From the IMG/VR virus record IMGVR_UViG_3300042330_000270, positions 1 through 51,910 of that record: a stretch of 51,910 bases of DNA; one strand, written 5' to 3'. Source of the DNA: a virus. The notes below the pieces were generated by a model. That model was not told the DNA's origin and did not search any database. It saw only the letters and a program-made list of their open reading frames with translations. A program made the translations under genes and the position numbers. Below, piece by piece: positions 10,195 through 50,599 of this stretch; positions within the stretch are counted from its first letter, which is position 1; every line of letters starts with the position of its first letter.

Positions 10195-11384
10195 TACGAT
10201 GTAACGGCTTTGATGACTGCGAAGTTGATTTGGATTGCGGAACCGCTTTCAGCCGATCCGCTGCCATTGTTGTTGGACACGGCAATCTTAAAGTACCCAG
10301 AGCCAACCTCAACAATAGAAGCCTGCGTATTTCCGCCGTTTGTCCCGCCGCGAATAGACGCGATAACTACATCCGACTGAGCGACCCGGCTGTTGTTCAC
10401 TTGAAACACAGCGGCTGTTTCGTGCGCGATTGATGTCCCACTGAACATCTGCACCATGCCAGAAAGCGTATTCAGCGTGACAGCCGTAGTCTGGCTTGTG
10501 ATTTGGGTGATAGTTCCGCCAGCGCCAGTGACGTATCCGATTGCGCCGCCGCTGGAAGAGATTGCGCCCGTGACAGCAAGGCTTGTTCCGGTTGCTGCTC
10601 CGATAACTGGAGTGACGAGCGTTGGCGATGTCGCAAAGACAAGCGAGCCAGATCCGGTTTCACCAGTGACTGCGGCGGCGAGGTTCGTGCTGGATGGAGT
10701 GGCAAGCCAAGTAGCAACCCCTGATCCGAGTCCGGCGATTGCTCCGACTGGGTAATCCGTGCAGTTTTCAAGGACGCCTGAAATCGGGGTTCCAATGTCG
10801 GCATCAGCAAGCGTCTTGTTTGACAGGGTTTCAGCGCCAGCCAACGTCGCCACCGTTCCGGTTGTTGGCAGCGTGAGCGATGTCGCGCCTGACGTTGCGA
10901 ACGTGATGTTGTTCGCACCGAGAGTCAACACGCACGATCCGCTGGACGAAACAGTTACATTGCCAGACACGGTGAGCGCCGCTCCATTGGAGATCGTGAG
11001 CGTAGCACTGGTTGCCGGAGCCGTGATCGTTACCTTGTTGATGCTGGTCGCGGTCGCCACTCCAAGAACCGGAGCCACCAATGTCGGCGTATTCGCAAAA
11101 ACCAAAGCGCCAGTTCCGGTTTCATCACTGATCTTCCCAGCAAGCTCAGACGAAGTACATGCAGCGAAGTCCGAAATCTTTGCAGCCGTAGATGCCAATG
11201 TTCCGGATGTCGGCAGAGTAACGCTCGTTGCGCCAGTCGCAGTGATTGTAACGCCGTAAGCGCCGGACAACGTGGCGGATGTCCACGCCTGAGAGATTGG
11301 TAGATCAACCGCAGCACGCATCGCCGTTTTATCGGCAGCTTGCATAAACGTGTGAACCGAGGATGAAACAGTGATGTCTGGCAT
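10194..11384 (-). CDS. Tail-fibre-like repeat protein (396 aa)
   Basis: Low-complexity, Ala/Thr/Ser/Gly-rich and nearly free of Lys and Trp. It has internal repeats of a type known from phage fibres: ETGTGALVFANTPTLVAP and ETGSGSLVFATSPTLVTP, plus ATGATSVTLPTSGTLAS and ATSGATSLTLPTTGTVAT. The last ~100 residues are less repetitive (TQASIVEVGSGYFKIAVSNN) and may form the globular tip. The start ATG lies three bases after the holin-like gene's stop. Probably an adhesion or fibre shaft protein. Confidence 0.8.
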   Translation of the reverse strand: MPDITVSSSVHTFMQAADKTAMRAAVDLPISQAWTSATLSGAYGVTITATGATSVTLPTSGTLASTAAKISDFAACTSSELAGKISDETGTGALVFANTPTLVAPVLGVATATSINKVTITAPATSATLTISNGAALTVSGNVTVSSSGSCVLTLGANNITFATSGATSLTLPTTGTVATLAGAETLSNKTLADADIGTPISGVLENCTDYPVGAIAGLGSGVATWLATPSSTNLAAAVTGETGSGSLVFATSPTLVTPVIGAATGTSLAVTGAISSSGGAIGYVTGAGGTITQITSQTTAVTLNTLSGMVQMFSGTSIAHETAAVFQVNNSRVAQSDVVIASIRGGTNGGNTQASIVEVGSGYFKIAVSNNNGSGSAESGSAIQINFAVIKAVTS

Positions 11385-11387
11385 GGT

Positions 11388-11861
11388 TTATCGCTTCCCT
11401 TTAGGGAACATGGATTTTATAATTGCTGTAACCTTGTGAATCAACCACCAACCGTTCATTCCAAGCATGAATCCAGCAGCGGCCCAGGCTTCCCATGCGC
11501 GAACAATGTGAGCTTCGGCGGTAATCCACCCCCACTGCAAAAGCAGCAGATAGACTAATTTTGGAGCTAAACTCCCAGCCATCGCACACGCCAGAAAATT
11601 TGACATCGCTGGTCCGAAATCCCTTCCTTTGTACCTTGCTTCGATCAGCGCAATCAGGCTCGCCAAAATTGCCCCGAGAGCAGCATACATATCAACTGCG
11701 CGTGGTTGTTCAATAATCAACGCCGTAGCTGGCAGTGCAAACGCAGTGGCGATTACAGGGATAGTGAGTGCGGCTGTGAGAAGGGGCATTGGTTTCCTGC
11801 GTGTGGTGCGATGTTTTACAGGTATCGCCCCGATGGTTGCGGGGAACGACTGATGGTTCAT
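11388..11861 (-). CDS. Holin-like membrane protein with two candidate starts
   Basis: From the longer start (157 aa) the first 24 residues are basic (HRTTRRKP) and soluble. Four hydrophobic segments follow at about residues 27-50, 57-72, 88-112 and 122-142, and the tail is basic (KSMFPKGKR). Two starts are plausible. The ATG at 11861 overlaps the upstream stop as ATGA but has no Shine-Dalgarno. The ATG at 11789 (133 aa) has AGGAAA about 10 bases upstream. Two products differing by a basic N-terminal extension would resemble holin/antiholin dual-start genes. Holin identity rests on size, topology and phage context; the endolysin lies elsewhere (27117-27755). Confidence 0.55.
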   Translation of the reverse strand: MNHQSFPATIGAIPVKHRTTRRKPMPLLTAALTIPVIATAFALPATALIIEQPRAVDMYAALGAILASLIALIEARYKGRDFGPAMSNFLACAMAGSLAPKLVYLLLLQWGWITAEAHIVRAWEAWAAAGFMLGMNGWWLIHKVTAIIKSMFPKGKR

Positions 11862-14591: not shown

Positions 14592-14915
14592 TCAGGATTT
14601 GTAGAGAAGTAGCGTTCCGGAAGCGATGACCAGATCGTTGATATTGCCGAATAACCAGGAATTTGCCTTGAAGGTAATCCCGGCGAGCGAGCCTCCGACA
14701 ACATTGTTTACAGATGCTGAAACTACAGCGCCAGCTTCGTAGAAAGACAATGATGTGAGAACTGTATCTGCAATGAAGAAAATTCCGCAGTACGATCCGG
14801 CTGGCGGAGATGCGGCAGCTCCATTATAAATAACTGGCGCTCCGGTTTTTCCCATGAACTGCGCAACAGCATTGGAGATAATCTGCGGATGGGGTGCTGA
14901 GTATGGTACTGCCAT
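14592..14915 (-). CDS. Small structural protein, tandem paralogue B (107 aa)
   Basis: The motif IISNAVAQFMGKTGAPVIYN (residues ~12-31) is shared almost exactly with the next upstream gene, as is the ending SWLFGNINDLVIASGTLLLY. Hydrophobic, beta-rich and without charged clusters. The position just after the capsid gene suggests a head or head-fibre component. Unknown family. Confidence 0.72.
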   Translation of the reverse strand: MAVPYSAPHPQIISNAVAQFMGKTGAPVIYNGAAASPPAGSYCGIFFIADTVLTSLSFYEAGAVVSASVNNVVGGSLAGITFKANSWLFGNINDLVIASGTLLLYKS

Positions 14916-14919
14916 GGCA

Positions 14920-15270
14920 TTATGCTGGGTATGCGATTAGTAAACCAGAGTCTAAAAGAAATGAGTAAATATTACCTCGGATGATTGCTCCTGCCGGGAC
15001 GACTGTGATGTCTGATATATTCCCGCTTTCTCCTGATGTATCTACCGCGAGTTGCTGATTTTCTTGAGCGCTATATGTAGTGCTATTCTCATTTACGTAT
15101 ATTCTAAAATCAAAAAACACACAATCCTGCATGCAATAAATTGCTGCGATTGGAATCTGAGGATCTGGCGAGCCGTAGTTGTAGATCCTCGGGGCCCCCG
15201 TCTTTCCCATCGCTTGAGCGAGCGCATTCGCAATGACGTGTTCGTCGTTTGCTGCGTAGGAAGCGGACAT
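14920..15270 (-). CDS. Small structural protein, tandem paralogue A (116 aa)
   Basis: Paralogue of the following gene. VIANALAQAMGKTGAPRIYN (residues ~12-31) and NIYSFLLDSGLLIAY at the end correspond to segments of that protein. Three-base gap between the two. The first gene after the major capsid gene, separated from it by a 76-base gap with a hairpin. A decoration or head-completion role is a positional guess. Confidence 0.72.
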   Translation of the reverse strand: MSASYAANDEHVIANALAQAMGKTGAPRIYNYGSPDPQIPIAAIYCMQDCVFFDFRIYVNENSTTYSAQENQQLAVDTSGESGNISDITVVPAGAIIRGNIYSFLLDSGLLIAYPA

Positions 15271-15293
15271 TGTAAAAGTTTCGGTTTGAAGTA

Positions 15294-15322
15294 GGGGTGC
15301 CAGCCAACTTGACTGACACCCC
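15294..15322 (-). other. Intergenic hairpin after the capsid gene
   Basis: Ten-base stem, GGGGTGCCAG with CTGACACCCC, one mismatch, nine-base loop. It lies between the capsid stop and the next gene. No clear T-run follows on the minus strand, so it is better read as an attenuator, processing site or mRNA-stabilising hairpin than as a strong terminator. Confidence 0.45.
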
Positions 15323-15346
15323 CGTTATTGGTGAACCACCACCAAA

Positions 15347-16963
15347 TCAGGCAGTCAACCCGAGGCCGCTCGTCACGCTGATGGATGGAGCAGCGAGGAC
15401 GGTTGGGTCCGGACGACGGTGGATGATAGCCCAGCCGAACTGAGTTTTCATCGGCTTGCTGGCGAACTCCAGGATACCACGGAAGTAACCGAACGTACCA
15501 TCCGGGTTGGTCGTCTCGTTCCGGATATTCTGCCAGTTGAAGTCACCGATACGGGTCGTCGGATCATAACTGGTTCCAGCGCCAAGGCTCGTCGTGGAGT
15601 TCCGCGTGAGAGCTTCCATCACCTCCGGATGGAGAATGAAAGACATCTCGTATGGGGCCGTGTGGTATGCAGGGTTTTCAACCCAGCCACCTTGGCCGTT
15701 CGTCAACGTAGTCAACCGCCCAGTCATGTCGGAACTGAACGGAGTCTTGTCAATCAGAACGGTCGTCGAGGACGGGATTGCAAGCACCCGGAATGTCCCG
15801 CTGTAATCACTGTCGGAAGCAGAGGTTGGCGCAATGCTTACGACCGATCCGACCACGAGTCCGTTTGTTCCCAATTCCGTAGAGCCGTTGTTCGTAACGG
15901 TAAGTAGCGTTCCACCAGTTGCGGTTGCCGCAGCCGTAATCGCAACGTCAATACTTCCGGCTTGGTACGTCCATGGCGGAACCTCAGTGAAGTCGTACAC
16001 GGAGCTGTTCAGAGCCAGCGTGAAGCGAGGAACTTCGTGATCCAGCGTGTGCGAAAACCCACAGAGCGAACGAGTCACCCCGAGTGGCTTTAGCAGTTCG
16101 CCAGCGTTACCCCAGCGCAAGTCGTTCCGAGTACCAGCCTCACGAATGAGGTAGTCGCTCGTTTCTGGCGAGGTGAGCAGCGGGAACACCGGAGCGCCAT
16201 CGGACATGCCGCCGCTGTTCTTGCCTGCGCCGTTCCGGCAGAGGCGAGCATAGATGTCACGGAGAACACCGCCAGTCAGGACCGAGTGCTTCGTGCTGAA
16301 ACCGCCGGACGGAGCCGCGCCAGTCATGTTGAGCTGAGCGAGCGTGAACCCGCGTAGTGTCGCAAAGTCGGTCGCGCCAGTGACGGAGGCATCAGCAAGA
16401 GAGTTGAGCGACCCGGATTCAGGCGTGCCAATACATACTTTGTTGGCGCACATGCGGAAGTATTCCTCGCGAGTGCGGTAGCTCCAGACGCGCATGCCTG
16501 CATCAAGCAAGCAATCGTACAGCATCTTCATTTGTTCTTTAAATTGGAACGAGAAGGCTGCGTCACGAACGTCGATCCGCATGGACTCAACAGCGGTCCA
16601 AGCGAGATTATACTCACGCAGGCGTTGCGTCACTTGGACAACAGCGGCTGGAGGAAGACCCCGAGAGGTGCTGATGTCTGGGGGCGTATTGCCTGTGGCG
16701 GCGGACGAGAACCCATGAGCCCGGTGATTGGCCCAAGTCCCCTTCCCGGTAGTCCCAACAAGCGCTCGTTCGTAGTTCAGGACGCGGATCGAATCGCCCA
16801 TCCCGTCAGGCCAAAGACCACGTTTCACAACGCGAGCCCAAGGAGAGACATCGTAGGCGTAACGGAAAAGACCTTCACCGATCCGACCGGATTCATTGAT
16901 GAAGTTTTGTTGGATGATTTGCGATCCAGTAGTGGAATTCGCTGGTACGGTAGTAGAGGGCAT
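15347..16963 (-). CDS. Major capsid protein (538 aa)
   Basis: Identified mainly from context: it directly follows the scaffold gene and is the main large alpha/beta protein of the head block. The N-terminal ~200 residues carry helices (IGEGLFRYAYDVSPWARVVKRG, then MKMLYDCLLDAGMRVWSYR) resembling the N-arm and spine helix region of HK97-fold capsids. Residues ~345-420 form a separate beta-rich segment (GSIDVAITAAATATGGT) that could be an inserted domain on the capsid surface. The ATG at 16963 is preceded by a ~200-base leader with its own promoter-like sequence and a terminator from the previous unit, which suits high, separate expression. Confidence 0.8.
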   Translation of the reverse strand: MPSTTVPANSTTGSQIIQQNFINESGRIGEGLFRYAYDVSPWARVVKRGLWPDGMGDSIRVLNYERALVGTTGKGTWANHRAHGFSSAATGNTPPDISTSRGLPPAAVVQVTQRLREYNLAWTAVESMRIDVRDAAFSFQFKEQMKMLYDCLLDAGMRVWSYRTREEYFRMCANKVCIGTPESGSLNSLADASVTGATDFATLRGFTLAQLNMTGAAPSGGFSTKHSVLTGGVLRDIYARLCRNGAGKNSGGMSDGAPVFPLLTSPETSDYLIREAGTRNDLRWGNAGELLKPLGVTRSLCGFSHTLDHEVPRFTLALNSSVYDFTEVPPWTYQAGSIDVAITAAATATGGTLLTVTNNGSTELGTNGLVVGSVVSIAPTSASDSDYSGTFRVLAIPSSTTVLIDKTPFSSDMTGRLTTLTNGQGGWVENPAYHTAPYEMSFILHPEVMEALTRNSTTSLGAGTSYDPTTRIGDFNWQNIRNETTNPDGTFGYFRGILEFASKPMKTQFGWAIIHRRPDPTVLAAPSISVTSGLGLTA

Positions 16964-21126: not shown

Positions 21127-22974
21127 TCAAGCAATAGCCATCCAGTCGCCGCCGCCGTTTGACCTGCTCACAACATCCAGTCTGCGCATTACTTCAAAGA
21201 AATCCTTCTTCGGCAATACAGACAAGCCGCGCTCCTTGGATTGCCAGTGGAATCTCTCACGGCAAGTTTCAATACAAAGCATAAGCGAGTCAGCTTTGTC
21301 GGGCGAGCGACCTATCCGTAGCTTCATCTTCAGCTTCGGCTCAACCATCATCCGTTCGCCGTCTGCGCCTTTCACCATGGAAAATCGACGGGCTTTCATC
21401 TCATGGCACAGCTCAGGATCTTTGCGGAAACCACTCAACTGCCCGCCGCGCATAAACTCAATCCCGACGCCCCATAGTTCCGAAACGCGATTAGTGTACT
21501 TCTTGGACGATGGAGTCCGATCATTTGACGACACTGGACGCTCCGTTGCCCTGCCGCCAAAGTTGATGCGCAGGATTTCCTTTGACATAAACTGCGTCAA
21601 TCTGTCCACCGTGCCAGTGGCGCTGGTGCTGTCCACCGCCAGATTTCTGTACGACACACCCTCTTTATCTAGGATCTTCTTCACTTCAGCGCAGATTTGA
21701 TCCGTCCTAGGATTCATCTTGTCCGCCGCATTCTCATGAATAGCGTAGAACTTCTCAAGCTGGAGGCACATCACGCCGTCGATTGTCTCACCAAATAGAC
21801 AAATGCACAGGCTGGTTTTGTCACCGCCGCTAGAGAAGGACAAGTCCAGCCCCGCAATCTTTGTTGGTTCTTTCTTCCATTTGACGGATTCCTGCATGTA
21901 CGCATTGAAATCCGTGTCTGTGTAAATCGTATCCTCGGTGCCCTGAACCGGGAAGAATCCTCGATAGAAGCGGTAGAAGCGGGCAGAGTTTTCGCCATGC
22001 TGCTGCCGGAACTTTTCGATCTTCTCGTAGGTGAGCATGTACTTGTAGATCACCTCTTGCTCCAAGTAGTTCGGAGACTGAAGAACATCGAACCGGATGG
22101 CTTTTCCGTACTTGGTATCCCACTCCATCATGGACTCATCCAGTGTTGCCCAGCCCTCGACAGGCTCGCACATCAGACCGAACGGATCTTCCCTATCCTT
22201 CGGATTGCTCATCGCAATCATCTGGAACCATGGATTTGAAATCAGGTTGTCGGACGCATGGAGGACAGCAGGGGAGAGTTCGCAGAGTTCGTCCGCAATC
22301 AGGATCACCCTTTCATTCTTCAGCCCGACGAGCTTCTGCACGGCGGACGCTTCCTGCTTCTGCTCAGCGGCAACGAGACAGATTGATGCTGCGTCATGCG
22401 CCACCGATCCGTCCTGCGGCTGATAGTGGATCATATTCAGCGACGGCTTGATCTTGCCGAGCCGCTTGTACTTGTCCGGCAGCTTGTTCCACAACTGCAT
22501 GACGGACTTCCAGATCCGCCGTTTGGCCGCACCGATGGACGTTGAGGTGACGAGGACGAGCGTGTTCTCTGGGTCCGCAATGAAATTGACGATGGCGATG
22601 ATCGCGCCGCCAAAGGACTTGGACGACGAGGAGCATCCAGCGACTGCGAGGAAATTGTGTTCGCACGACTCCTCCAACATCTTCTCCAGCCAAGGGTTCC
22701 ACTCGACGACGTTCTTCCCTCCCGTGTTCCAGAGCAGATCAATACACTCCCGCAGATGCTCGTACTTTCCCATCCCTCCTTCCCCTGGAGTCAACCCCCG
22801 GATGAAAGCCGACAGCTCAATGTCCAGCCGCGAGTACCCAATTTTGCCGTCCCACCATTCCCCGTAGAGTTCGTGGTAGATCCCTCCGTTTTCGTCCAGC
22901 CCCCATGAGTCGTAGTCGAACAGCGGTGGCTTTGGAGAAAGCCCGCCTTGTCTTTGGATGACTGGTGCGACCAT
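21127..22974 (-). CDS. terL: Terminase large subunit (615 aa)
   Basis: ATPase and nuclease that packages DNA into the prohead. The Walker A-like loop is AGCSSSSKSFGG (residues ~112-123), an unusual Ser-rich form. Walker B is VILIADEL (~223-230), with the acidic pair D228/E229. The C-terminal RNase H-like nuclease shows AGLDLSFSSGGDKTSL (D377), LAVDSTSATGT (D448) and GRSPDKADSLML (D559/D562). Length is typical. No separate small subunit gene is evident nearby. The ATG at 22974 is only 15 bases from a strong hairpin terminator, so expression probably depends on read-through. Confidence 0.92.
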   Translation of the reverse strand: MVAPVIQRQGGLSPKPPLFDYDSWGLDENGGIYHELYGEWWDGKIGYSRLDIELSAFIRGLTPGEGGMGKYEHLRECIDLLWNTGGKNVVEWNPWLEKMLEESCEHNFLAVAGCSSSSKSFGGAIIAIVNFIADPENTLVLVTSTSIGAAKRRIWKSVMQLWNKLPDKYKRLGKIKPSLNMIHYQPQDGSVAHDAASICLVAAEQKQEASAVQKLVGLKNERVILIADELCELSPAVLHASDNLISNPWFQMIAMSNPKDREDPFGLMCEPVEGWATLDESMMEWDTKYGKAIRFDVLQSPNYLEQEVIYKYMLTYEKIEKFRQQHGENSARFYRFYRGFFPVQGTEDTIYTDTDFNAYMQESVKWKKEPTKIAGLDLSFSSGGDKTSLCICLFGETIDGVMCLQLEKFYAIHENAADKMNPRTDQICAEVKKILDKEGVSYRNLAVDSTSATGTVDRLTQFMSKEILRINFGGRATERPVSSNDRTPSSKKYTNRVSELWGVGIEFMRGGQLSGFRKDPELCHEMKARRFSMVKGADGERMMVEPKLKMKLRIGRSPDKADSLMLCIETCRERFHWQSKERGLSVLPKKDFFEVMRRLDVVSRSNGGGDWMAIA

Positions 22975-25479: not shown

Positions 25480-25794
25480 ATGGACACAAAATCAATTTCA
25501 GATGAGGCTTTGGTGAATCTGCCGCCTTGTTCGTTTTCATCCGAAGAGATGCAGCAAATCAGGGATGCTTTATGGAAGGCTCGCTGCGACATCTGGCAAA
25601 CCGCCCGTGTTGCCGAATACAATCTGACAGGCAAAGATCCGAGCTTTCCGAGCGATTCTGCGGATGTAGCCCCAAATCCACCAAGACTGATTCACCGTGC
25701 AGGATTGGATGCGTCGTATGCTGTTTTTGAAGAAGTCTGCGCGGCCCTTAAGATGCTGCATCATAAAATACAAACTCCGTCATTGCGTATTTGA
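25480..25794 (+). CDS. Small hypothetical protein (104 aa)
   Basis: Not recognised. Mostly helical, with FSSEEMQQIRDALWKARCDIW near the start and LDASYAVFEEVCAALKMLHHKI near the end. ATG at 25480, with no clear Shine-Dalgarno. Its 3' end overlaps the regulatory element of the next gene. Confidence 0.68.
   Translation: MDTKSISDEALVNLPPCSFSSEEMQQIRDALWKARCDIWQTARVAEYNLTGKDPSFPSDSADVAPNPPRLIHRAGLDASYAVFEEVCAALKMLHHKIQTPSLRI
25776..25789 (+). promoter_or_regulatory. TACG-N6-CGTATT element copy (25825 unit)
   Basis: TCCG tcattg CGTATTTGAA, one mismatch in the left half, 35 bases before the ATG at 25825. It lies in the last codons of the preceding gene. Confidence 0.6.
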
Positions 25795-27027: not shown

Positions 27028-27130
27028 ATATGACAAGCTGTACACGCCGGAAGGCCAATGCCCGACGTGCTGGCATCGCAGAGGCAGGGCGCTGGCGAAG
27101 GGGAAGTGCAGGTGTGTCACGGGTCCATGA
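27020..27130 (+). CDS. Tiny zinc-ribbon-like protein (36 aa)
   Basis: The ATG at 27020 overlaps the HTH gene's end. The 36 residues contain CPTC, then 13 residues, then CRC, in a basic context (HRRGRALAKGKC), as in small zinc-binding peptides. The stop lies 14 bases inside the 3' end of the convergent endolysin gene. Coding status is supported by the overlap and cysteine spacing only. Confidence 0.55.
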   Translation: MREYDKLYTPEGQCPTCWHRRGRALAKGKCRCVTGP

Positions 27131-27755
27131 GGCGGACGAAAGACCGCGCCTCCTTACGATCCCGCTGTTTGAGCCAGACGCCGTCACCCTCCCGGCTCCC
27201 GGACGCCGAGGTATTACCTTCCACCGTACTGACAATGTTTGCCGAGTCGCTTATTACGAATCCGATATGACTGGTGTCAAAAATCATCAGATCACCCAAA
27301 CGAAGTCGTTGACGGGGTCTTCCAGCCAAGCGATCCTGCTTTTCGTTGATGATGAAAATCTGCTGGTTCGCTGCAAGGGTTTGTGCTTGGACGCTGGATG
27401 GTGATGGTTTGTAGCTCGGATTCTCCCGTAGCTTCAGTTCTTTTTCGGCAGCAACCTGACGACCCCGAGCCCAAGTCGCCCAAGCGAAAGCGCCAGCAGT
27501 CTTTCCCCGCCAGCGTTCCGCCATGTCCGGCGTGAGCTTGAGTTGAGCCAGCACTTCTTTGTCTTTTAGCCATTCCTTTATGCAGTACGCCACAAATGCG
27601 GCGCAGTACGGAAATTTTAGTTGATGCCCATTCGGAATATCCGTAGCTGGCCAATACTTCGCAATGAACGGCGCTCTATTGTGGCTGATCTCGACTTTCC
27701 CGACATCACGTTTGGCGATGTCAACGAGTCTCTGGCGTAGGTGTAGGGTGCTCAT
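27117..27755 (-). CDS. Endolysin-like CHAP/NlpC-type peptidase (212 aa)
   Basis: The catalytic Cys region is FPYCAAFVAYCIKEW (residues ~47-61), and the His region is FDTSHIGFVIS (~165-175), followed by VEGNTSASG. This arrangement is typical of CHAP or related cysteine amidase/endopeptidases that cut peptidoglycan. No signal peptide, so a holin would be needed; the candidate is at 11388-11861. It is leftward within the rightward early block, three bases after a 121-aa gene. Confidence 0.82.
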   Translation of the reverse strand: MSTLHLRQRLVDIAKRDVGKVEISHNRAPFIAKYWPATDIPNGHQLKFPYCAAFVAYCIKEWLKDKEVLAQLKLTPDMAERWRGKTAGAFAWATWARGRQVAAEKELKLRENPSYKPSPSSVQAQTLAANQQIFIINEKQDRLAGRPRQRLRLGDLMIFDTSHIGFVISDSANIVSTVEGNTSASGSREGDGVWLKQRDRKEARSFVRLMDP

Positions 27756-28147: not shown

Positions 28148-28158
28148 GATTTTGCAAA

Positions 28159-28172
28159 CACGCGATTGCGTA
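28159..28172 (+). promoter_or_regulatory. TACG-N6-CGTATT element copy (28209 unit)
   Basis: CACG cgattg CGTATTTG, one mismatch, 36 bases before the chosen ATG at 28209. With the opposite-facing copy it makes a compact divergent control region. Confidence 0.6.
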
Positions 28173-28208
28173 TTTGTCCAGCCAGCCGTGTGCGATAAAA
28201 TGAAGAAT

Positions 28209-28562
28209 ATGGATTATGACCCGACATGCGAAACCCCGTGGATTGTGGATTGCGATTGCGACACCTGCCGAGGGTATGTCTGGCGCTGTCCGGACTGCGG
28301 CGAGAGTCACTTCCAAGACCTCCCCGAATGCAACGATTGCGACTGGGTTGCGCCGGAACGCGCTGACGAGTTGATGCGTGACTACCTGATCGGCGGCAAG
28401 TTTGAAGCGGCAGCAAACTGCTGGCTCCACACAAAATACGCGAACACGGCGCTTGAAACAAAGTTGACCGAGATTAACAAGACGGGCGGCGATGTGCTGA
28501 TGTGCCATCTCCGGGAGATCGCCAAGCTCGCATTCGTCGCAGCACTTGAAGAATCTAAATGA
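28209..28562 (+). CDS. Cysteine-rich zinc-ribbon-like protein (117 aa)
   Basis: The first ~45 residues hold three cysteine pairs (CDCDTC, CPDC, CNDC). The rest is helical (ERADELMRDYLIGGKFEAAAN; LREIAKLAFVAALEE). ATGs at 28200 and 28209 are both open; 28209 keeps the usual distance from the upstream element. It ends by ATGA overlap with the first PEP-CTERM gene, so it may be co-regulated with the surface proteins. Confidence 0.72.
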   Translation: MDYDPTCETPWIVDCDCDTCRGYVWRCPDCGESHFQDLPECNDCDWVAPERADELMRDYLIGGKFEAAANCWLHTKYANTALETKLTEINKTGGDVLMCHLREIAKLAFVAALEESK

Positions 28563-28837
28563 AAACCGTCATCCTCTCAATCGTCGCAGCGGGAGCTGCT
28601 GCCGTCGCCGTCGTTGCCCCTGACTTTGAACGCCAGAAAGGCAAGGGTAATAGCAAGGACAAGTCCAAAGAGTCATACATGGACTCATCCAAGGAGTCCA
28701 GCAAGGAAACCCGGAAGACAACTGCCGGGACGTACTGGAGCGAAGACACCCGGCCAATGCCTGTTCCTGAGCCAAGTTCGCCAGTCGTCATCCTCGCCTT
28801 GGCTGGAGCCGCAGTCCTGATGCGCCGTAGCGCTTAA
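28559..28837 (+). CDS. PEP-CTERM surface protein 1 (92 aa)
   Basis: An N-terminal hydrophobic signal or anchor (VILSIVAAGAAAVAVVA, residues 4-20), then a Ser/Lys-rich charged linker (GKGNSKDKSKES; SSKESSKETRK). At residues 69-75 is VPEPSSP, followed by the hydrophobic stretch VVILALAGAAVLM and the basic end RRSA. That tripartite tail is the PEP-CTERM sorting signal read by bacterial exosortases, which cleave and place proteins at the cell surface. The gene overlaps its upstream neighbour by ATGA. A phage-encoded substrate implies the host makes the exosortase. Confidence 0.85.
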   Translation: MKTVILSIVAAGAAAVAVVAPDFERQKGKGNSKDKSKESYMDSSKESSKETRKTTAGTYWSEDTRPMPVPEPSSPVVILALAGAAVLMRRSA

Positions 28838-28847
28838 TCAAATCACC

Positions 28848-29060
28848 ATGAAATACATCGTCATCCTAATCGCACTGGCATCTTCCGCGCATGCTCAACT
28901 CTCGTTCTTTGGAGGCAACGGCCCTGACGGAGTCTGCCGACTTGAGAACGGAGTGTGGCAGTGCTACCCGCAGCAACACTCAGTCCCAGAGCCGTCTTCT
29001 CCAATCGTCCTGCTGACTGCGGCAGGCGCGGTCCTTCTGATGAGGCGCAAACGGAACTGA
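28848..29060 (+). CDS. PEP-CTERM surface protein 2 (70 aa)
   Basis: A clear signal peptide (YIVILIALASSAHA, cleavage probably after Ala17). The short mature part has two cysteines (C30, C39) that could form one disulfide. Then VPEPSSP at residues 46-52, IVLLTAAGAVLLM and RRKRN: the PEP-CTERM signal. Once processed, only about 30-35 residues would remain outside. It follows the first PEP-CTERM gene after 10 bases. A role in surface modification or exclusion is speculation. Confidence 0.85.
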   Translation: MKYIVILIALASSAHAQLSFFGGNGPDGVCRLENGVWQCYPQQHSVPEPSSPIVLLTAAGAVLLMRRKRN

Positions 29061-29063
29061 ACC

Positions 29064-29231
29064 ATGGAACCAGACACATCAGACCAATCTCTCGGTGGTG
29101 GCGGAACGGTGGAGGAATCCGGAATGACTCCGCTCTCTGCTGCCGCTGGTGGCTTTGACGACGACCTCGACGATGTCCCGCTCGGGAGTGCGTGCAGCAT
29201 CGACAACCCGGAATGTGACTCTTGCCAATGA
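29064..29231 (+). CDS. Small acidic Gly-rich protein (55 aa)
   Basis: Starts three bases after the second PEP-CTERM gene and ends in an ATGA overlap with the next gene. It has a GGGG run, an acidic patch (FDDDLDDV), and three cysteines in the last dozen residues (C-X6-C-X2-C). No signal peptide. Supported by its tight packing between genes; function unknown. Confidence 0.6.
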   Translation: MEPDTSDQSLGGGGTVEESGMTPLSAAAGGFDDDLDDVPLGSACSIDNPECDSCQ

Positions 29232-31732: not shown

Positions 31733-31868
31733 AGAGATCCCGGCAATTCTTCTTCCGCATGTCACCGAGCAAGACGGCAGGCTTTACTTCCAGCGGGACT
31801 TCTGGTCATGCGGGCCGCAGTTTGAGCATGATTGTCTGACTGGATATATTGAAGAACTAAAACAATGA
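31722..31868 (+). CDS. Very small hypothetical protein (48 aa)
   Basis: Starts inside the previous gene and ends in an ATGA overlap with the RNA ligase gene. Sequence features: LPHVTEQDGRLYFQRDFWSCG, then an acidic C-terminal helix. Its place in the overlapping chain supports translation. Confidence 0.6.
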   Translation: MKIEEIPAILLPHVTEQDGRLYFQRDFWSCGPQFEHDCLTGYIEELKQ

Positions 31869-32584
31869 ACACACGCGAAAAACCACACAAGCCGCTCGGC
31901 AAAAAAGCATACGGCAGCATTCCGCATCTACCTGGTTCCCGCAGGGGTCCGGCAGACAAAGGGCTGTCCGACCAGCAAGCCAGCCTCCTCACCGTGAAGA
32001 CACGGGACAGGCATGACGTAGTGATCGTCCAAGAGAAGCTGGACGGCAGCAATGTCTCGGTCGCCAACATCGATGGAGAGATCATTGCCATTACCCGTGC
32101 AGGCTACCGCGCCGAGGAAAGCATCTACGAGATGCACCATCACTTCAAGCGTTGGGTGGACCGAGAGCGTCATCGCTTTGCCGCCCTGCTCAACCCAGGA
32201 GAACGAGCATGCGGGGAATGGCTGATGCAGGCGCACGGGACTCGGTACAATCTGCCTCACGAACCGTTTGTGATCTTCGACATCATGCGCGGGAACGAAA
32301 GGTTGTGCGAAATGAAGGTTGCCATATCGTGCAAATTGACTGGATTCACCACTCCAAAGCTGCTTCATTGCGGCGGCGCAATCAGCGTCGAAGCCATCCT
32401 TGAAAAGCTGGAGCCGTCCGGTCACGGCGCGATTGATCCAGTCGAAGGCGCAGTCTGGCGCATGGAGCGCAGAGGAATCGTCGAGTTCCTTGGAAAGTAC
32501 GTCCGCTCAGACAAGATCGACGGAAAGTACCTGCCCGGTCACGGCAGCGATGAGCCCGTCTACAACTGGATCTCGGACGTATGA
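31865..32584 (+). CDS. RNA ligase, Rnl2-type nucleotidyltransferase (239 aa)
   Basis: Joins RNA ends through a lysyl-AMP intermediate in known families. Motif I is EKLDGSN (residues 57-63) with K58 as the predicted adenylated lysine. A motif III-like strand is PFVIFDIMRG (~133-142), motif IV is VEGAVWRME (~201-209), and a motif V-like basic segment is FLGKYVRSDKIDGKYLPG (~215-232). Short for the family and without an obvious extra C-terminal domain. No polynucleotide kinase-phosphatase gene is visible nearby, so its substrate ends must come from elsewhere. ATGA overlaps on both sides. Confidence 0.85.
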   Translation: MNTREKPHKPLGKKAYGSIPHLPGSRRGPADKGLSDQQASLLTVKTRDRHDVVIVQEKLDGSNVSVANIDGEIIAITRAGYRAEESIYEMHHHFKRWVDRERHRFAALLNPGERACGEWLMQAHGTRYNLPHEPFVIFDIMRGNERLCEMKVAISCKLTGFTTPKLLHCGGAISVEAILEKLEPSGHGAIDPVEGAVWRMERRGIVEFLGKYVRSDKIDGKYLPGHGSDEPVYNWISDV

Positions 32585-38068: not shown

Positions 38069-38280
38069 ACGACACACTATTCCGATCCGAAGATGAACGA
38101 GCGTTCAAACAGCAGTTCGTCACGCAGTTCCTTGCGAGCTGGACGGCTGTGCATTACACCGAATACTGCCAAAGAGGAGAGCAGGATGTTCTGGAACATC
38201 CGCCCGTCGAAGATGCCGCGTACCTCGCCCAGAAGGCTTGGGAGGAGTGGTGTGTAATGATGAATGGAGAAAAAGCATGA
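38065..38280 (+). CDS. Small helical protein (71 aa)
   Basis: Charged helices (SEDERAFKQQFVTQFLASWTAV; AYLAQKAWEEWCVMM). Preceded by GGAGG and joined to the methyltransferase gene by ATGA overlap. Unknown. Confidence 0.65.
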   Translation: MNDTLFRSEDERAFKQQFVTQFLASWTAVHYTEYCQRGEQDVLEHPPVEDAAYLAQKAWEEWCVMMNGEKA

Positions 38281-39854
38281 ACTACTACAACGAATTTGAC
38301 CCGAAAGCCGCAGCGTGGTTGCAGCAACTTATTAACCAAAACATCATCCCAAATGGACATGTCGATACAAGATCAATCACAGATGTCACCGCCAGCGACC
38401 TCGCCGGATACACCCAATGTCACTTCTTCGCTGGAATCGGAGGCTGGAGCCGAGCCTTATTCCTCGCTGGAGTTCCATCAACCACTCCTCTTTGGACTGG
38501 ATCTTGCCCATGCCAGCCATTCTCCAACGCCGGAAAACGCAGAGGAACGGAAGACGAACGACATCTCTGGCCCACATGGAAACAGCTCATCTCGCAGTGC
38601 AAACCTTCAATCGTTTTTGGAGAGCAAGTTGCGTCTGCTGACGGAAGGAACTGGCTCGCCTCTGTACGCTCTGACTTGGAAACACTGGACTATGCTGTCG
38701 GGGCCGCCGATCTGTGCGCTGCGGGCATCGGTGCGCCGCACATCAGACAACGCCTCTGGTTTGTCGGCCATCCCGACAACGGTCGTGGGGGATGTCTGGA
38801 AGCCATCAACGCCAGAATCAATAGCACACGAAATAGAGAAGCGGAATCTGCGCGGCGTAGTGCATCTTGCAGCATGGCCCACCCCAACCACCAGGGACCA
38901 CAAGGACGGACAGGAATGCCTGAATGTTCCAACCAACTCACTGCTGGGACGGGAAGTCTGGAAAGCGGGATGGGGGACACCGACAACATCAGAGCCGGGA
39001 GGGACAGGGGATCAGTATCTTGCACGCTCATCGGAGAAGACGGGCAATACATTCCCAAGCATGCTGACGCATCAGGCAATGACGGCAACGCCGATGAGGC
39101 TCACGGCTTCTGGCGAGATGCTGATTGGCTCCTCTGCCGGGATGAACGCTGGAGGTCAGTTGAACCCATCCATGTCAAGATGGTTGATGGGGTATCCTCC
39201 GGAATGGGACGAAGCGGCGATTACTTCATCTCCGAAGAAGACCGCCGAACGAGAATGCAGGCACTGCTCGACACCTTTGGAGAGGAAGAGATTCAACGGC
39301 AGGCTGGAGGACAATGGAGCATTCAAGAAGAGAGTCTTCTGCAACAGATCATGCATGGCGGAATGGATGGAGGGGCAGATGAAAGTAGAGTCCGAGAAGA
39401 ACAGTCGCAGGCAGTCAGCAAAAGCAGCGAAAGAATCGTGCGAGATATGCAGCCGCTCGGACACAAGGTTGTCGGTGCATCACAAGGATGCGGACCCGAT
39501 GAACAACAACCCGTCGAACTTGCAGACATTGTGCGGCTCTTGCCATCGTCGCTGTCACTCTCCGAACTTCATGGAAGACGGCGTGACGCAGAGGTGCTGC
39601 GTGTACTGCTCCGAGCCATCCGTGAAATCAGGGGTGTGCAACACGCATCTGAGTCGCTGGAGGAGGCATGGGCATCCCTTGGCAAAGATGAAAAAGAACG
39701 GGTCGCAATGGGATTTGATGCTGGAGCATGGAGGAGAGTGGTTCCCTTTCCGCTCGCTACAGGAACTCTTGCCAGAGTAACGCGCCTCAGAGGTTACGGC
39801 AATGCCATCGTCCCGCAAGTCGCAGCAACCTTCATCCGTGCAGCTCTGATGTAG
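38277..39854 (+). CDS. Cytosine-C5 DNA methyltransferase, Dcm type (525 aa)
   Basis: Adds methyl groups to cytosine in DNA. Motif I FAGIGGW (residues 51-57) binds AdoMet. Motif IV GSCPCQPFS (75-83) holds catalytic Cys79. Motif VI FGEQV (114-118) has Glu116, and motif VIII is IRQRLWFVG (156-164). The final RLRGYGNAIVPQVAA (~506-520) is motif X. Between motif VIII and motif X lie over 330 residues. The part after WRSVEP has no usual methyltransferase features and coincides with the HNH region of the second gene read in the +1 frame. The protein looks complete. ATGA overlap upstream; a terminator follows. Confidence 0.88.
   Translation: MNYYNEFDPKAAAWLQQLINQNIIPNGHVDTRSITDVTASDLAGYTQCHFFAGIGGWSRALFLAGVPSTTPLWTGSCPCQPFSNAGKRRGTEDERHLWPTWKQLISQCKPSIVFGEQVASADGRNWLASVRSDLETLDYAVGAADLCAAGIGAPHIRQRLWFVGHPDNGRGGCLEAINARINSTRNREAESARRSASCSMAHPNHQGPQGRTGMPECSNQLTAGTGSLESGMGDTDNIRAGRDRGSVSCTLIGEDGQYIPKHADASGNDGNADEAHGFWRDADWLLCRDERWRSVEPIHVKMVDGVSSGMGRSGDYFISEEDRRTRMQALLDTFGEEEIQRQAGGQWSIQEESLLQQIMHGGMDGGADESRVREEQSQAVSKSSERIVRDMQPLGHKVVGASQGCGPDEQQPVELADIVRLLPSSLSLSELHGRRRDAEVLRVLLRAIREIRGVQHASESLEEAWASLGKDEKERVAMGFDAGAWRRVVPFPLATGTLARVTRLRGYGNAIVPQVAATFIRAALM
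38353..39780 (+). CDS. Overlapping-frame gene: methylase-companion protein with C-terminal HNH domain (475 aa)
   Basis: Lies wholly inside the methyltransferase gene, read in the +1 frame. The N-terminal part is Ser/Thr/Pro-rich (SPPATSPDTPNVTSS). The middle contains SPLYALTWKHWTM, AAWPTPTTRDHKDG and NPSMSRWLMGYPPEWD, strings seen in methylase-associated phage proteins. Then comes CRHCSTPLERKRF (~301), a CEICSRSD...LSVHHKDADPMNNNPSNLQTLCGSCHRRCHS HNH site (~363-407), and further CVYC and CNTHLSRWRRHG elements. Start uncertain: ATG at 38353, 38359 or 38383. Conserved motifs in both frames make true dual coding likely; which product is made, and how, is unknown. Confidence 0.72.
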   Translation: MDMSIQDQSQMSPPATSPDTPNVTSSLESEAGAEPYSSLEFHQPLLFGLDLAHASHSPTPENAEERKTNDISGPHGNSSSRSANLQSFLESKLRLLTEGTGSPLYALTWKHWTMLSGPPICALRASVRRTSDNASGLSAIPTTVVGDVWKPSTPESIAHEIEKRNLRGVVHLAAWPTPTTRDHKDGQECLNVPTNSLLGREVWKAGWGTPTTSEPGGTGDQYLARSSEKTGNTFPSMLTHQAMTATPMRLTASGEMLIGSSAGMNAGGQLNPSMSRWLMGYPPEWDEAAITSSPKKTAERECRHCSTPLERKRFNGRLEDNGAFKKRVFCNRSCMAEWMEGQMKVESEKNSRRQSAKAAKESCEICSRSDTRLSVHHKDADPMNNNPSNLQTLCGSCHRRCHSPNFMEDGVTQRCCVYCSEPSVKSGVCNTHLSRWRRHGHPLAKMKKNGSQWDLMLEHGGEWFPFRSLQELLPE

Positions 39855-45057: not shown

Positions 45058-45237
45058 ATGAAGAATTCTAAACCAATCGCTCAAATCTGCTTTACATGCT
45101 CGTTCTGGATCGGAACCCGTCGCAAGCAATCCGCATACTGCGCTCGCTGGGCGCTGGCTGGAAGGCATGCCCCAACCGGAGACGGCGGATGCGGAGCCTG
45201 GGACAAACGACCAAACGCAAGACTTAAACAGAAATGA
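45058..45237 (+). CDS. Small cysteine protein (59 aa)
   Basis: CFTCSFWIG, SAYCARWA and GGCGAWD provide four spaced cysteines, a likely zinc site. The ATG at 45058 lies at the end of a GACACAATCGCGT repeat; a GTG at 45043 is in frame. ATGA overlap downstream. Confidence 0.68.
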   Translation: MKNSKPIAQICFTCSFWIGTRRKQSAYCARWALAGRHAPTGDGGCGAWDKRPNARLKQK

Positions 45238-47694: not shown

Positions 47695-48606
47695 ATGAGC
47701 GAACAAACGCAAGCACTGGCGCAGACCCCGAAAGACCTCCGCGCCCTCATTAACTCAGAGAAGGTCAAGGCTGAGATCATCCGCGCCCTTCCGTCCCACG
47801 TTACGCCGGATCGGTTCATCCGAGTGATGCTGACTGCATTGACGAAGAACCCGAAGCTACTGGAATGCACGCAGGAATCCGTGATGCGGTGCATGATGGA
47901 AGCCGCATCCATCGGGCTTGAACTGGATGGTCGCAGGGCTCACCCGATCCCGTATTTCGACAAAAACCTCAAGATGATGTCCTGCCAGCTCATCGTTGAC
48001 TACAAAGGACTCGTCGAAGTCGTCCGGCGCTCCGGTGATGTCTCCAGTATTCGGGCTGAACTTGTCTGCGAGAATGACGAGTTTGGCTGGGTCAACGGAG
48101 AGATCACGCATGAGATTGACTGGCGGAAACCACGCGGGAATGTCCAAGCGGTCTATGCGATTGCCAAGCTGAAGAGTGGCGAGGTGCAGTCGTCAACGCT
48201 TACGAAGGAGGAGGTGGAGTCCATCCGCGCACGCAGCAAGTCTCCGAACGCCGGACCTTGGGCGAGTGACTGGGGTGAAATGGCAAAAAAGACGGCAGTG
48301 CGCAGGCTCACGAAGATGCTCCCGTTCTCCCCGGAGGTGGCTGATGTCCTGGAGAAAGACGAGGACTTCCCTCCGCTTGAGCGGAACGTCACTCCAAGCA
48401 AAGGGGTGCGGGTTCCAGTTCTGATGCCGTCGCTTCCGCCAGTTGCGATTGAGGATGCAAAAGAATCTCCTGCCGCCGAAGCGTTCTGGGCATCCATGGG
48501 CGAGCTTCCACGGGATCGGATCAATGAATGGCTGAAGGATCACAACAAGACCCCGGAGACGGCGACGAAAGCCGACATGGAGGAAATCGAAGCGTACTGC
48601 TTCTGA
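47695..48606 (+). CDS. recT: RecT-family single-strand annealing protein (303 aa)
   Basis: Anneals complementary single strands in phage recombination. Typical RecT sequence: RFIRVMLTALTKNPKLLECTQESVMRCMMEAASIGLELDG (residues ~42-81), SCQLIVDYKGLVEVVRRSGDV (~99-119), and WASDWGEMAKKTAVRRL (~195-211). The C-terminal ~70 residues are Pro-rich and acidic. It forms a pair with the exonuclease that follows. Confidence 0.92.
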   Translation: MSEQTQALAQTPKDLRALINSEKVKAEIIRALPSHVTPDRFIRVMLTALTKNPKLLECTQESVMRCMMEAASIGLELDGRRAHPIPYFDKNLKMMSCQLIVDYKGLVEVVRRSGDVSSIRAELVCENDEFGWVNGEITHEIDWRKPRGNVQAVYAIAKLKSGEVQSSTLTKEEVESIRARSKSPNAGPWASDWGEMAKKTAVRRLTKMLPFSPEVADVLEKDEDFPPLERNVTPSKGVRVPVLMPSLPPVAIEDAKESPAAEAFWASMGELPRDRINEWLKDHNKTPETATKADMEEIEAYCF

Positions 48607-49507: not shown

Positions 49508-49707
49508 GAAAACAAATAGGACATCACATTGAAGTCTGGCTGAGTGGAGATTCTGCGCGAATCCAGATCAACGAAGCCATCCTGACTGCTGGTGGCGCAC
49601 ATGGATTCAAATGCCTGCTAAATGAGGCGATCCGGCTTTGTGAGCAGTACAACACCGAGCAAGCATTAAAGGATCACCCCTCACTTTTCTCTGATGAAAC
49701 CAAGTGA
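49504..49707 (+). CDS. Small hypothetical protein (67 aa)
   Basis: Sits between the exonuclease and the tandem-HNH gene with overlaps on both sides. HHIEVWLSGDSARIQINEAIL, then a helix (FKCLLNEAIRLCEQY). ATGs at 49498 and 49504 are both open; 49504 gives the usual ATGA overlap. May accompany the exonuclease. Confidence 0.66.
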   Translation: MRKQIGHHIEVWLSGDSARIQINEAILTAGGAHGFKCLLNEAIRLCEQYNTEQALKDHPSLFSDETK

Positions 49708-50599
49708 CGACTACATTAAGAACGAGCTGAAGGATCACATCCGCAGGGAGCTGCGCTACGATCCGGAGACGAGGCGAATGTACTGGCTTAAGGGCGGGAT
49801 GAACCGCTTGGCCGGGACAATGGCGGGGACACTGACCGCAAAAGGCGAGCAGATCATTCCGATCTCCGGGATGATGCTGTCGGCGGCGGCGATCAGTTAC
49901 TTCATGAGTACCGGGAAGTTACCTGAGTACAAGATGGGGTATCTGGACAAGGACAAGAAAAACATCCACATCTCAAACATTTTCCCGATTGCCAAGCCTA
50001 TACGGAAAGAGCGGGCTGAGAGAAGGGACGCAGCAAATTATGCCTCATTGACCTTGGTAAACCTGCGGGAGCGAATCAAGGATTGGATGACGTTCGACGA
50101 GAAGAAGATCCAGTTCCGATGGAAAACCTCATACGGAAAGCGAAAAGAAGGCAAGCTCGTCGGATGGCAAGTTAAACCGGATGGTACGCGGATTATAAAT
50201 GTTGAAGAAAAGCGTCTCAGGTACACTCACCTCGCTTGGCTCTGGCACCACGGGGAGTATCCGAAATCGAAGGTGTACCTGTTCGACAAAAAGAAGGGCG
50301 CGGCGAAGGACAACATGACCTTGGATCGGAAGCGGTATCTGTACCACAAACGGCAGAATGAGCCCAAGGACTACGTGTACCTCAAGTCCCCGACGACCCT
50401 CCACTGCCACAAGCAGTTCTGTCTGTACAAGAAGTCGAATGAGGAAACGCGCACGAAGCTGGGCCTGAAGCGCTACGACCCGTGGCGGATGGCTGCAACT
50501 TTCGAGAAATTGATCCGTAAGATCGCTCCTCAATACGCGGATACGGTACTGGCAATTGAGAACCAGCCGTTCCATTATCGCGGGAAAATGATCGAATGA
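49694..50599 (+). CDS. Degenerate tandem HNH-fold protein (301 aa)
   Basis: Two copies of an HNH-endonuclease-like layout. Copy 1: LRYDPETRRMYWLKG (~19-33) to FMSTGKLPEYKMGYLDKDKKNIHISNI (~70-96). Copy 2: MTFDEKKIQFRWKT (~130-143) to THLAWLWHHGEYPKSKVYLFDKKKG (~177-201). In active members the second part reads AHRLAW...DH.D.d..N...NL. Here the key DH is replaced by GYLD and YLFD, so catalysis is probably lost. The C-terminal ~80 residues are basic. A DNA-binding or structural role in recombination is inferred. ATGA overlap downstream. Confidence 0.68.
   Translation: MKPSDDYIKNELKDHIRRELRYDPETRRMYWLKGGMNRLAGTMAGTLTAKGEQIIPISGMMLSAAAISYFMSTGKLPEYKMGYLDKDKKNIHISNIFPIAKPIRKERAERRDAANYASLTLVNLRERIKDWMTFDEKKIQFRWKTSYGKRKEGKLVGWQVKPDGTRIINVEEKRLRYTHLAWLWHHGEYPKSKVYLFDKKKGAAKDNMTLDRKRYLYHKRQNEPKDYVYLKSPTTLHCHKQFCLYKKSNEETRTKLGLKRYDPWRMAATFEKLIRKIAPQYADTVLAIENQPFHYRGKMIE

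Follow-up and report, generated by a model that had tools for sequence, protein, structure and literature searches.

Can a phage encode substrates for the exosortase of its host? The question is raised by two adjacent small genes, PEP1 and PEP2, in a 51,910-bp IMG/VR virus record (the window, i.e. the whole stretch of DNA analysed). The record is that of a phage, because it is an IMG/VR virus entry and encodes a large-terminase-like product of 615 aa (21127–22974, minus strand; tblastn 3e-7, 20% identity to annotated large terminases), an endolysin (27117–27755, minus strand) and RecT (47695–48606). The terminase shares only ~20% identity with any cultured phage terminase. The window also encodes an RNA ligase (31865–32584), a DNA methyltransferase (38238–39854) and an HNH endonuclease (49694–50599), while its virion structural proteins are encoded on the minus strand. 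The structural module includes a 133-aa protein with several hydrophobic segments (11388–11789, minus strand), a holin candidate with no PHROG match. RecT, the methyltransferase and the endolysin have only distant kin in cultured phages, with mixed hosts, and the phage, to judge from its terminase, belongs to a group without cultured members. Neither a terminase-alignment scan nor a PEP-tail scan of a genome collection, made in search of the host, gave a confirmed relative, the idea of a Verrucomicrobiota host drew no support from either scan, and tblastn found no meaningful match to PEP1 or PEP2 among plasmids or to PEP2 among cultured phages.

PEP1 (28559–28837, plus strand) is a 92-aa protein composed of a signal-peptide-like N-terminus (residues 1 to ~17), a Lys/Ser/Glu-rich middle, a conserved AGTxWxEDTRP stretch and a PEP-CTERM tail, VPEPSSPVVILALAGAAVLMRRSA. 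PEP2 (28848–29060, plus strand), of 70 aa, has a probable signal peptide, MKYIVILIALASSAHA, a mature part of ~30 aa and the PEP-CTERM tail VPEPSSPIVLLTAAGAVLLMRRKRN. Both proteins close with PEP, ~14 hydrophobic residues and a basic cluster. The original prediction had described both tails as arginine-rich, which overstates the case for PEP1, whose basic end is RR(SA) only. It had also reserved a clear signal peptide for the second protein; PEP2 probably carries one, and so, plausibly, does PEP1, with the N-terminus MKTVILSIVAAGAAAVA. Judged by eye, both N-termini have a charged residue, a hydrophobic core and an AxA-type site (AHA in PEP2, AVA in PEP1). An AF2 model of PEP2 built from the family alignment is of low confidence (mean pLDDT 65.8) and has helices at residues 3–11 and 52–69.

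By TIGR02595 and tail architecture, PEP1 and PEP2 are confirmed as PEP-CTERM proteins. Specifically, both open reading frames lie where an adjacent pair had been predicted, and they score 19.3 bits (PEP1) and 26.1 bits (PEP2) against TIGR02595, above its curated cut-off of 16 bits. A six-frame search of the window with TIGR02595 returned these two matches and no other, a regular expression that describes the layout of the tail is matched by exactly two window ORFs, again PEP1 and PEP2, and no ORF with such an end appeared in 300 first-order Markov simulations of the window. Furthermore, 36 distantly related phage records (731 kb, ~0.73 Mb) contain no TIGR02595 match above the cut-off. The outcome with the second profile, PF07589, differs: the scores of 13.9 bits (PEP1) and 16.3 bits (PEP2) lie below its gathering score of 20.7 bits, and membership of PF07589 is not claimed. 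We do not count this as a refutation, because PF07589 is reported to detect just 22% of the proteins that TIGR02595 finds, and not a single one of those from Verrucomicrobium spinosum (Haft et al. 2006, PMC1569441).

The pair follows a gene for a Zn-ribbon-like protein with paired cysteines (28200–28562, plus strand; start at 28200 or 28209), the end of which overlaps the PEP1 start (ATGA), so that the two genes are likely translationally coupled. The Zn-ribbon-like protein has no family match in profile searches; it is 56–90% identical in three relatives, and its paired cysteines are invariant across four phages. Directly 3′ of PEP2, in the same transcription direction, lies an ORF for an acidic protein of 55 aa (29064–29231, plus strand), which is kept in relatives (80%, 72%) and partly rearranged in one of them (L002). 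The intergenic region that separates the endolysin-side gene from the divergent plus-strand operon contains an unstranded 26-bp near-palindrome, TTGCAAACACGCGATTGCGTATTTGT (28152–28177). Its sequence is unchanged across the window and the four related phage contigs holding the site, and it is a likely candidate for an operator or early promoter element. The regulatory element that had been placed upstream of the genes is this near-palindrome; the window has a single full copy of it, and partial copies near 25779 and 30857. The near-palindrome is identical although the adjacent proteins diverge by up to about half, and the partial copies (core TTGCGTATT) lie upstream of other plus-strand operons.

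Near relatives of the pair do exist in phages, one of the places where the original prediction had proposed to look for them. A search via the terminase yielded 16 loci, and three of these records (IMGVR 3300017766_001923, 3300042323_000664 and 3300008459_000244) span the PEP locus; PEP1 and PEP2 are both present in all three, i.e. in 4 of 4 spanning phage contigs with the window counted. In two relatives (L001, L002) differing extra genes separate PEP1 from the Zn-ribbon gene, and PEP1 and PEP2 are still adjacent, which supports their reading as exosortase substrates. Whole-gene dN/dS is 0.08–0.24 among three close phages (0.14–0.21 for PEP1 against close relatives) and 0.13–0.47 against the distant relative, where dS is near saturation; as read from these ratios, the pair is under purifying selection.

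The distant relative, 3300008459_000244 (L013; tblastn identity 55% for PEP1 and 44% for PEP2), shows where this conservation lies. Its PEP2 retains PEPSSPIVLLTAAG..LLMRR and matches that of the window at 20 of 24 tail positions and at 5 of 29 positions of the mature part, so that the tail is far better conserved than the remainder, as suits an exosortase substrate. For PEP1 the corresponding values are 15/23 and 23/42, and the L013 tail (PEPDSP...MTRNK) scores 15 bits, below the TIGR02595 cut-off. In an alignment of ten proteins from six contigs (the window, three close relatives, L081 and L143), PEP is invariant, PEPSSP is present in nine of the ten and is followed by the ~14-residue hydrophobic stretch and the basic end, and a Trp in front of the tail shows almost no variation.

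Besides the window group, PEP-CTERM proteins are, by their tails, encoded by two further unrelated phage lineages. Contigs with PhoH, QueD and QueE (L103, L124, L125, L127), called marine here from gene content and not from the records, encode a 215–227-aa protein that ends in VPEPSSALLGLLGLGALARRKR or a close variant and adjoins PhoH. A siphovirus-like contig (L145), with terminase, portal and tape-measure genes, has a pair of PEP-CTERM paralogues in tandem, next to the terminase gene (14791–15363 and 15914–16474). The TIGR02595 cut-off was exceeded in 6/6 of the contigs examined, and an exosortase was found in none of them. This recurrence of the tails in unrelated phages also favours the exosortase-substrate reading. 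The conserved secreted PEP-CTERM protein of the PhoH/QueD/QueE phages (G058) is likewise found beside PhoH at 10902–11549 of L146. Sub-threshold tail matches in two lysin relatives (L073, L074) were discounted, as they are in another frame and overlap a long portal-like gene, and so were pattern matches elsewhere (VPEPCSPVV and VPEPSSALLEAS, for example), their frames having no terminal tail.

No exosortase (PF09721) is encoded in the window, as had been predicted, and none was found in the 15 phage records searched (the window and 14 others, many of them fragments). Because the tails match and the phage records searched contain no exosortase, a host enzyme is the likely processor of PEP1 and PEP2. 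We consider it probable that the phage supplies a host exosortase with PEP1 and PEP2 as substrates, which would be exported, cleaved at PEP and, more speculatively, alter the surface of the infected cell. What the sequences show is the architecture, that purifying selection has conserved it and that it recurs in several phages; the lack of homology outside the tail, as in PEP-CTERM proteins (Haft et al. 2006, PMC1569441), is consistent with it. The reading is weakened by the PF07589 scores, the weakly basic PEP1 tail and the sub-cut-off L013 PEP1, and also by the Lys-rich middle of PEP1, since PEP-CTERM proteins contain fewer basic residues (Haft et al. 2006, PMC1569441).

The same tail could serve a different end. 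PEP1 and PEP2 might be decoys that occupy the host exosortase and strip the cell of a surface protein or exopolysaccharide (EPS) anchor, possibly a phage receptor, short and abundant substrates with near-ideal tails competing with host PEP-CTERM proteins. The tail is indeed the most conserved part of PEP2, beside a short mature part that diverges almost freely (5/29 identical), and having a second such protein in tandem would mean twice the dose of tails. We nevertheless regard this role as unlikely: the mature part of PEP1 is moderately conserved (23/42), including the AGTxWxEDTRP stretch, the nearly invariant Trp before the tail would be needless in a pure decoy, and the marine and siphovirus-like proteins have much longer mature parts than PEP1 and PEP2.

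More distant relatives show the PEP gene in other surroundings. A pattern scan of viral contigs revealed a 104-aa protein with the same type of tail in 3300044732_002719 (L081), which has in common with the window a resolvase-like gene, an HNH gene and the gene found at 45234 of the window (69% identity). Through the 45234 gene, two further records were reached: 3300037493_003062 (L143) encodes a 63-aa PEP-CTERM protein, and 3300033992_000665 (L148/L149) has no PEP-CTERM match. In L143, the PEP gene overlaps a small transmembrane (TM) gene, which is followed by a lipoprotein gene, one further gene and the endolysin. The PEP gene of L081 is flanked by recombination genes, with the TM/lipoprotein pair ~10 kb away, and L148 has the lysis-type cassette without a PEP gene. 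Such variation in position is expected of an accessory gene. It also limits the original prediction of an early-region placement, which does not hold generally: because the L143 gene sits with a lysis-type cassette, superinfection exclusion through early expression is not something that these phages have in common. The pair made up of a small TM gene and, directly after it, a proline-rich lipoprotein gene is probably spanin-like; it is present in L143 (13423–13829), L148 (5242–5651) and L147 (1554–1957), precedes the endolysin in the first two, and has no match in cultured phages.

The L143 arrangement bears on a second alternative, in which PEP1 and PEP2 are simply inner-membrane proteins with two helices, similar to class II holins or otherwise accessory to lysis or the membrane, and the PEP motif is incidental. 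Their hydrophobic segments at both termini, together with the basic end, recall the topology of class II holins. The PEP genes lie within ~1.1 kb of the endolysin in both the window and L143, and in L143 the overlap with the TM gene, ahead of the lipoprotein gene, adds to this resemblance. However, the conserved, obligate position in a lysis cassette expected of a holin or lysis protein is not seen, given the L148 cassette without a PEP gene and the L081 gene beside recombination genes, ~10 kb from the TM/lipoprotein pair. In addition, the window has a separate multi-TM holin candidate (11388–11789), and the N-terminus of PEP2 has a good signal-peptidase site (AHA). A generic anchor gives no reason for the conservation of PEPSSP. 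Taken together, we find this second alternative quite improbable. Captured host genes carried as cargo that benefits the host (biofilm or floc formation, lysogenic conversion) and not the lytic cycle would fit the varying genomic position and the rise in bound EPS caused by the PEP-CTERM protein PepA in a floc-forming bacterium (PMC9850573), but are very improbable given that no integrase was recognised among the scanned window genes, that the phage terminase, when used to scan contigs representing one genome per species, led to no prophage relative, and that the pair is kept in 4 of 4 contigs spanning the locus.

Processing by a host exosortase could then proceed as follows. The plus-strand operon starting at the conserved near-palindrome would express PEP1 and PEP2, and the N-terminal signal peptide would direct them to Sec export, with the C-terminal helix holding each protein in the inner membrane, its basic end in the cytoplasm, as the architecture suggests. 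The host exosortase would recognise and cleave the PEP motif, as the tail match and the lack of a phage exosortase suggest, and the short mature peptide would pass to the outer envelope or the exopolysaccharide layer, by analogy with bacterial PEP-CTERM proteins. Finally, and speculatively, the changed surface of the infected cell would most likely limit further phage adsorption or alter the EPS layer. The latter effect is plausible because overexpression of PepA in a floc-forming bacterium shifts EPS from the soluble to the cell-bound form (PMC9850573).

The sorting tail itself is already known, and its use by phages appears to be undescribed: the open-access literature, mostly its titles and abstracts and with subscription journals outside its scope, yielded no description of a phage-encoded PEP-CTERM protein. 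As far as sequences can tell, phages probably exploit the sorting machinery of their hosts to change the surface of the cells that they infect. A broader suggestion, which we advance tentatively and hold to be possible but somewhat doubtful, is that several unrelated phage lineages came by exosortase substrates independently, through acquisition or evolution, and that these proteins, some of them very small, serve to remodel or block exopolysaccharide-linked surface sorting during infection, by display or by decoy competition, as a general strategy against exosortase-positive bacteria. The functions of PEP-CTERM proteins and exosortases are poorly known, and small phage substrates would offer a compact means of probing the pathway. 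If the reading is true, phages act on the exopolysaccharide-linked surface of the host, and metagenomic phage contigs could be tentatively assigned to exosortase-positive hosts.

Among known systems, the phage proteins of superinfection exclusion and conversion resemble PEP1 and PEP2 in being small, exported, phage-encoded surface proteins in an accessory position, and differ in having no exosortase tail. These lipoproteins and membrane proteins use lipobox, TM or outer-membrane signals. PepA (Aquincola, Zoogloea; PMC9850573) is like the phage proteins in its sorting tail and in a possible link to exopolysaccharide binding; in contrast to them it is chromosomal and RpoN-controlled (PMC9850573), and it has no likeness to PEP2 outside the tail, PEP2 lying far below the NF033554 cut-off. 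The closest comparison is with the TIGR02595 PEP-CTERM proteins of the exosortase EpsH/Xrt system, in the description of which phage is not mentioned (Haft et al. 2006, PMC1569441). Unlike that bacterial set, the proteins reported here are phage-encoded, with no exosortase on the record, short (63–104 aa), and present in one or two copies per genome; the N-terminal signal peptide of the bacterial set has a probable counterpart in the phage proteins, and both share the PEP motif, the ~14-residue hydrophobic stretch and the basic C-terminal end, with no homology beyond the tail (PMC1569441).
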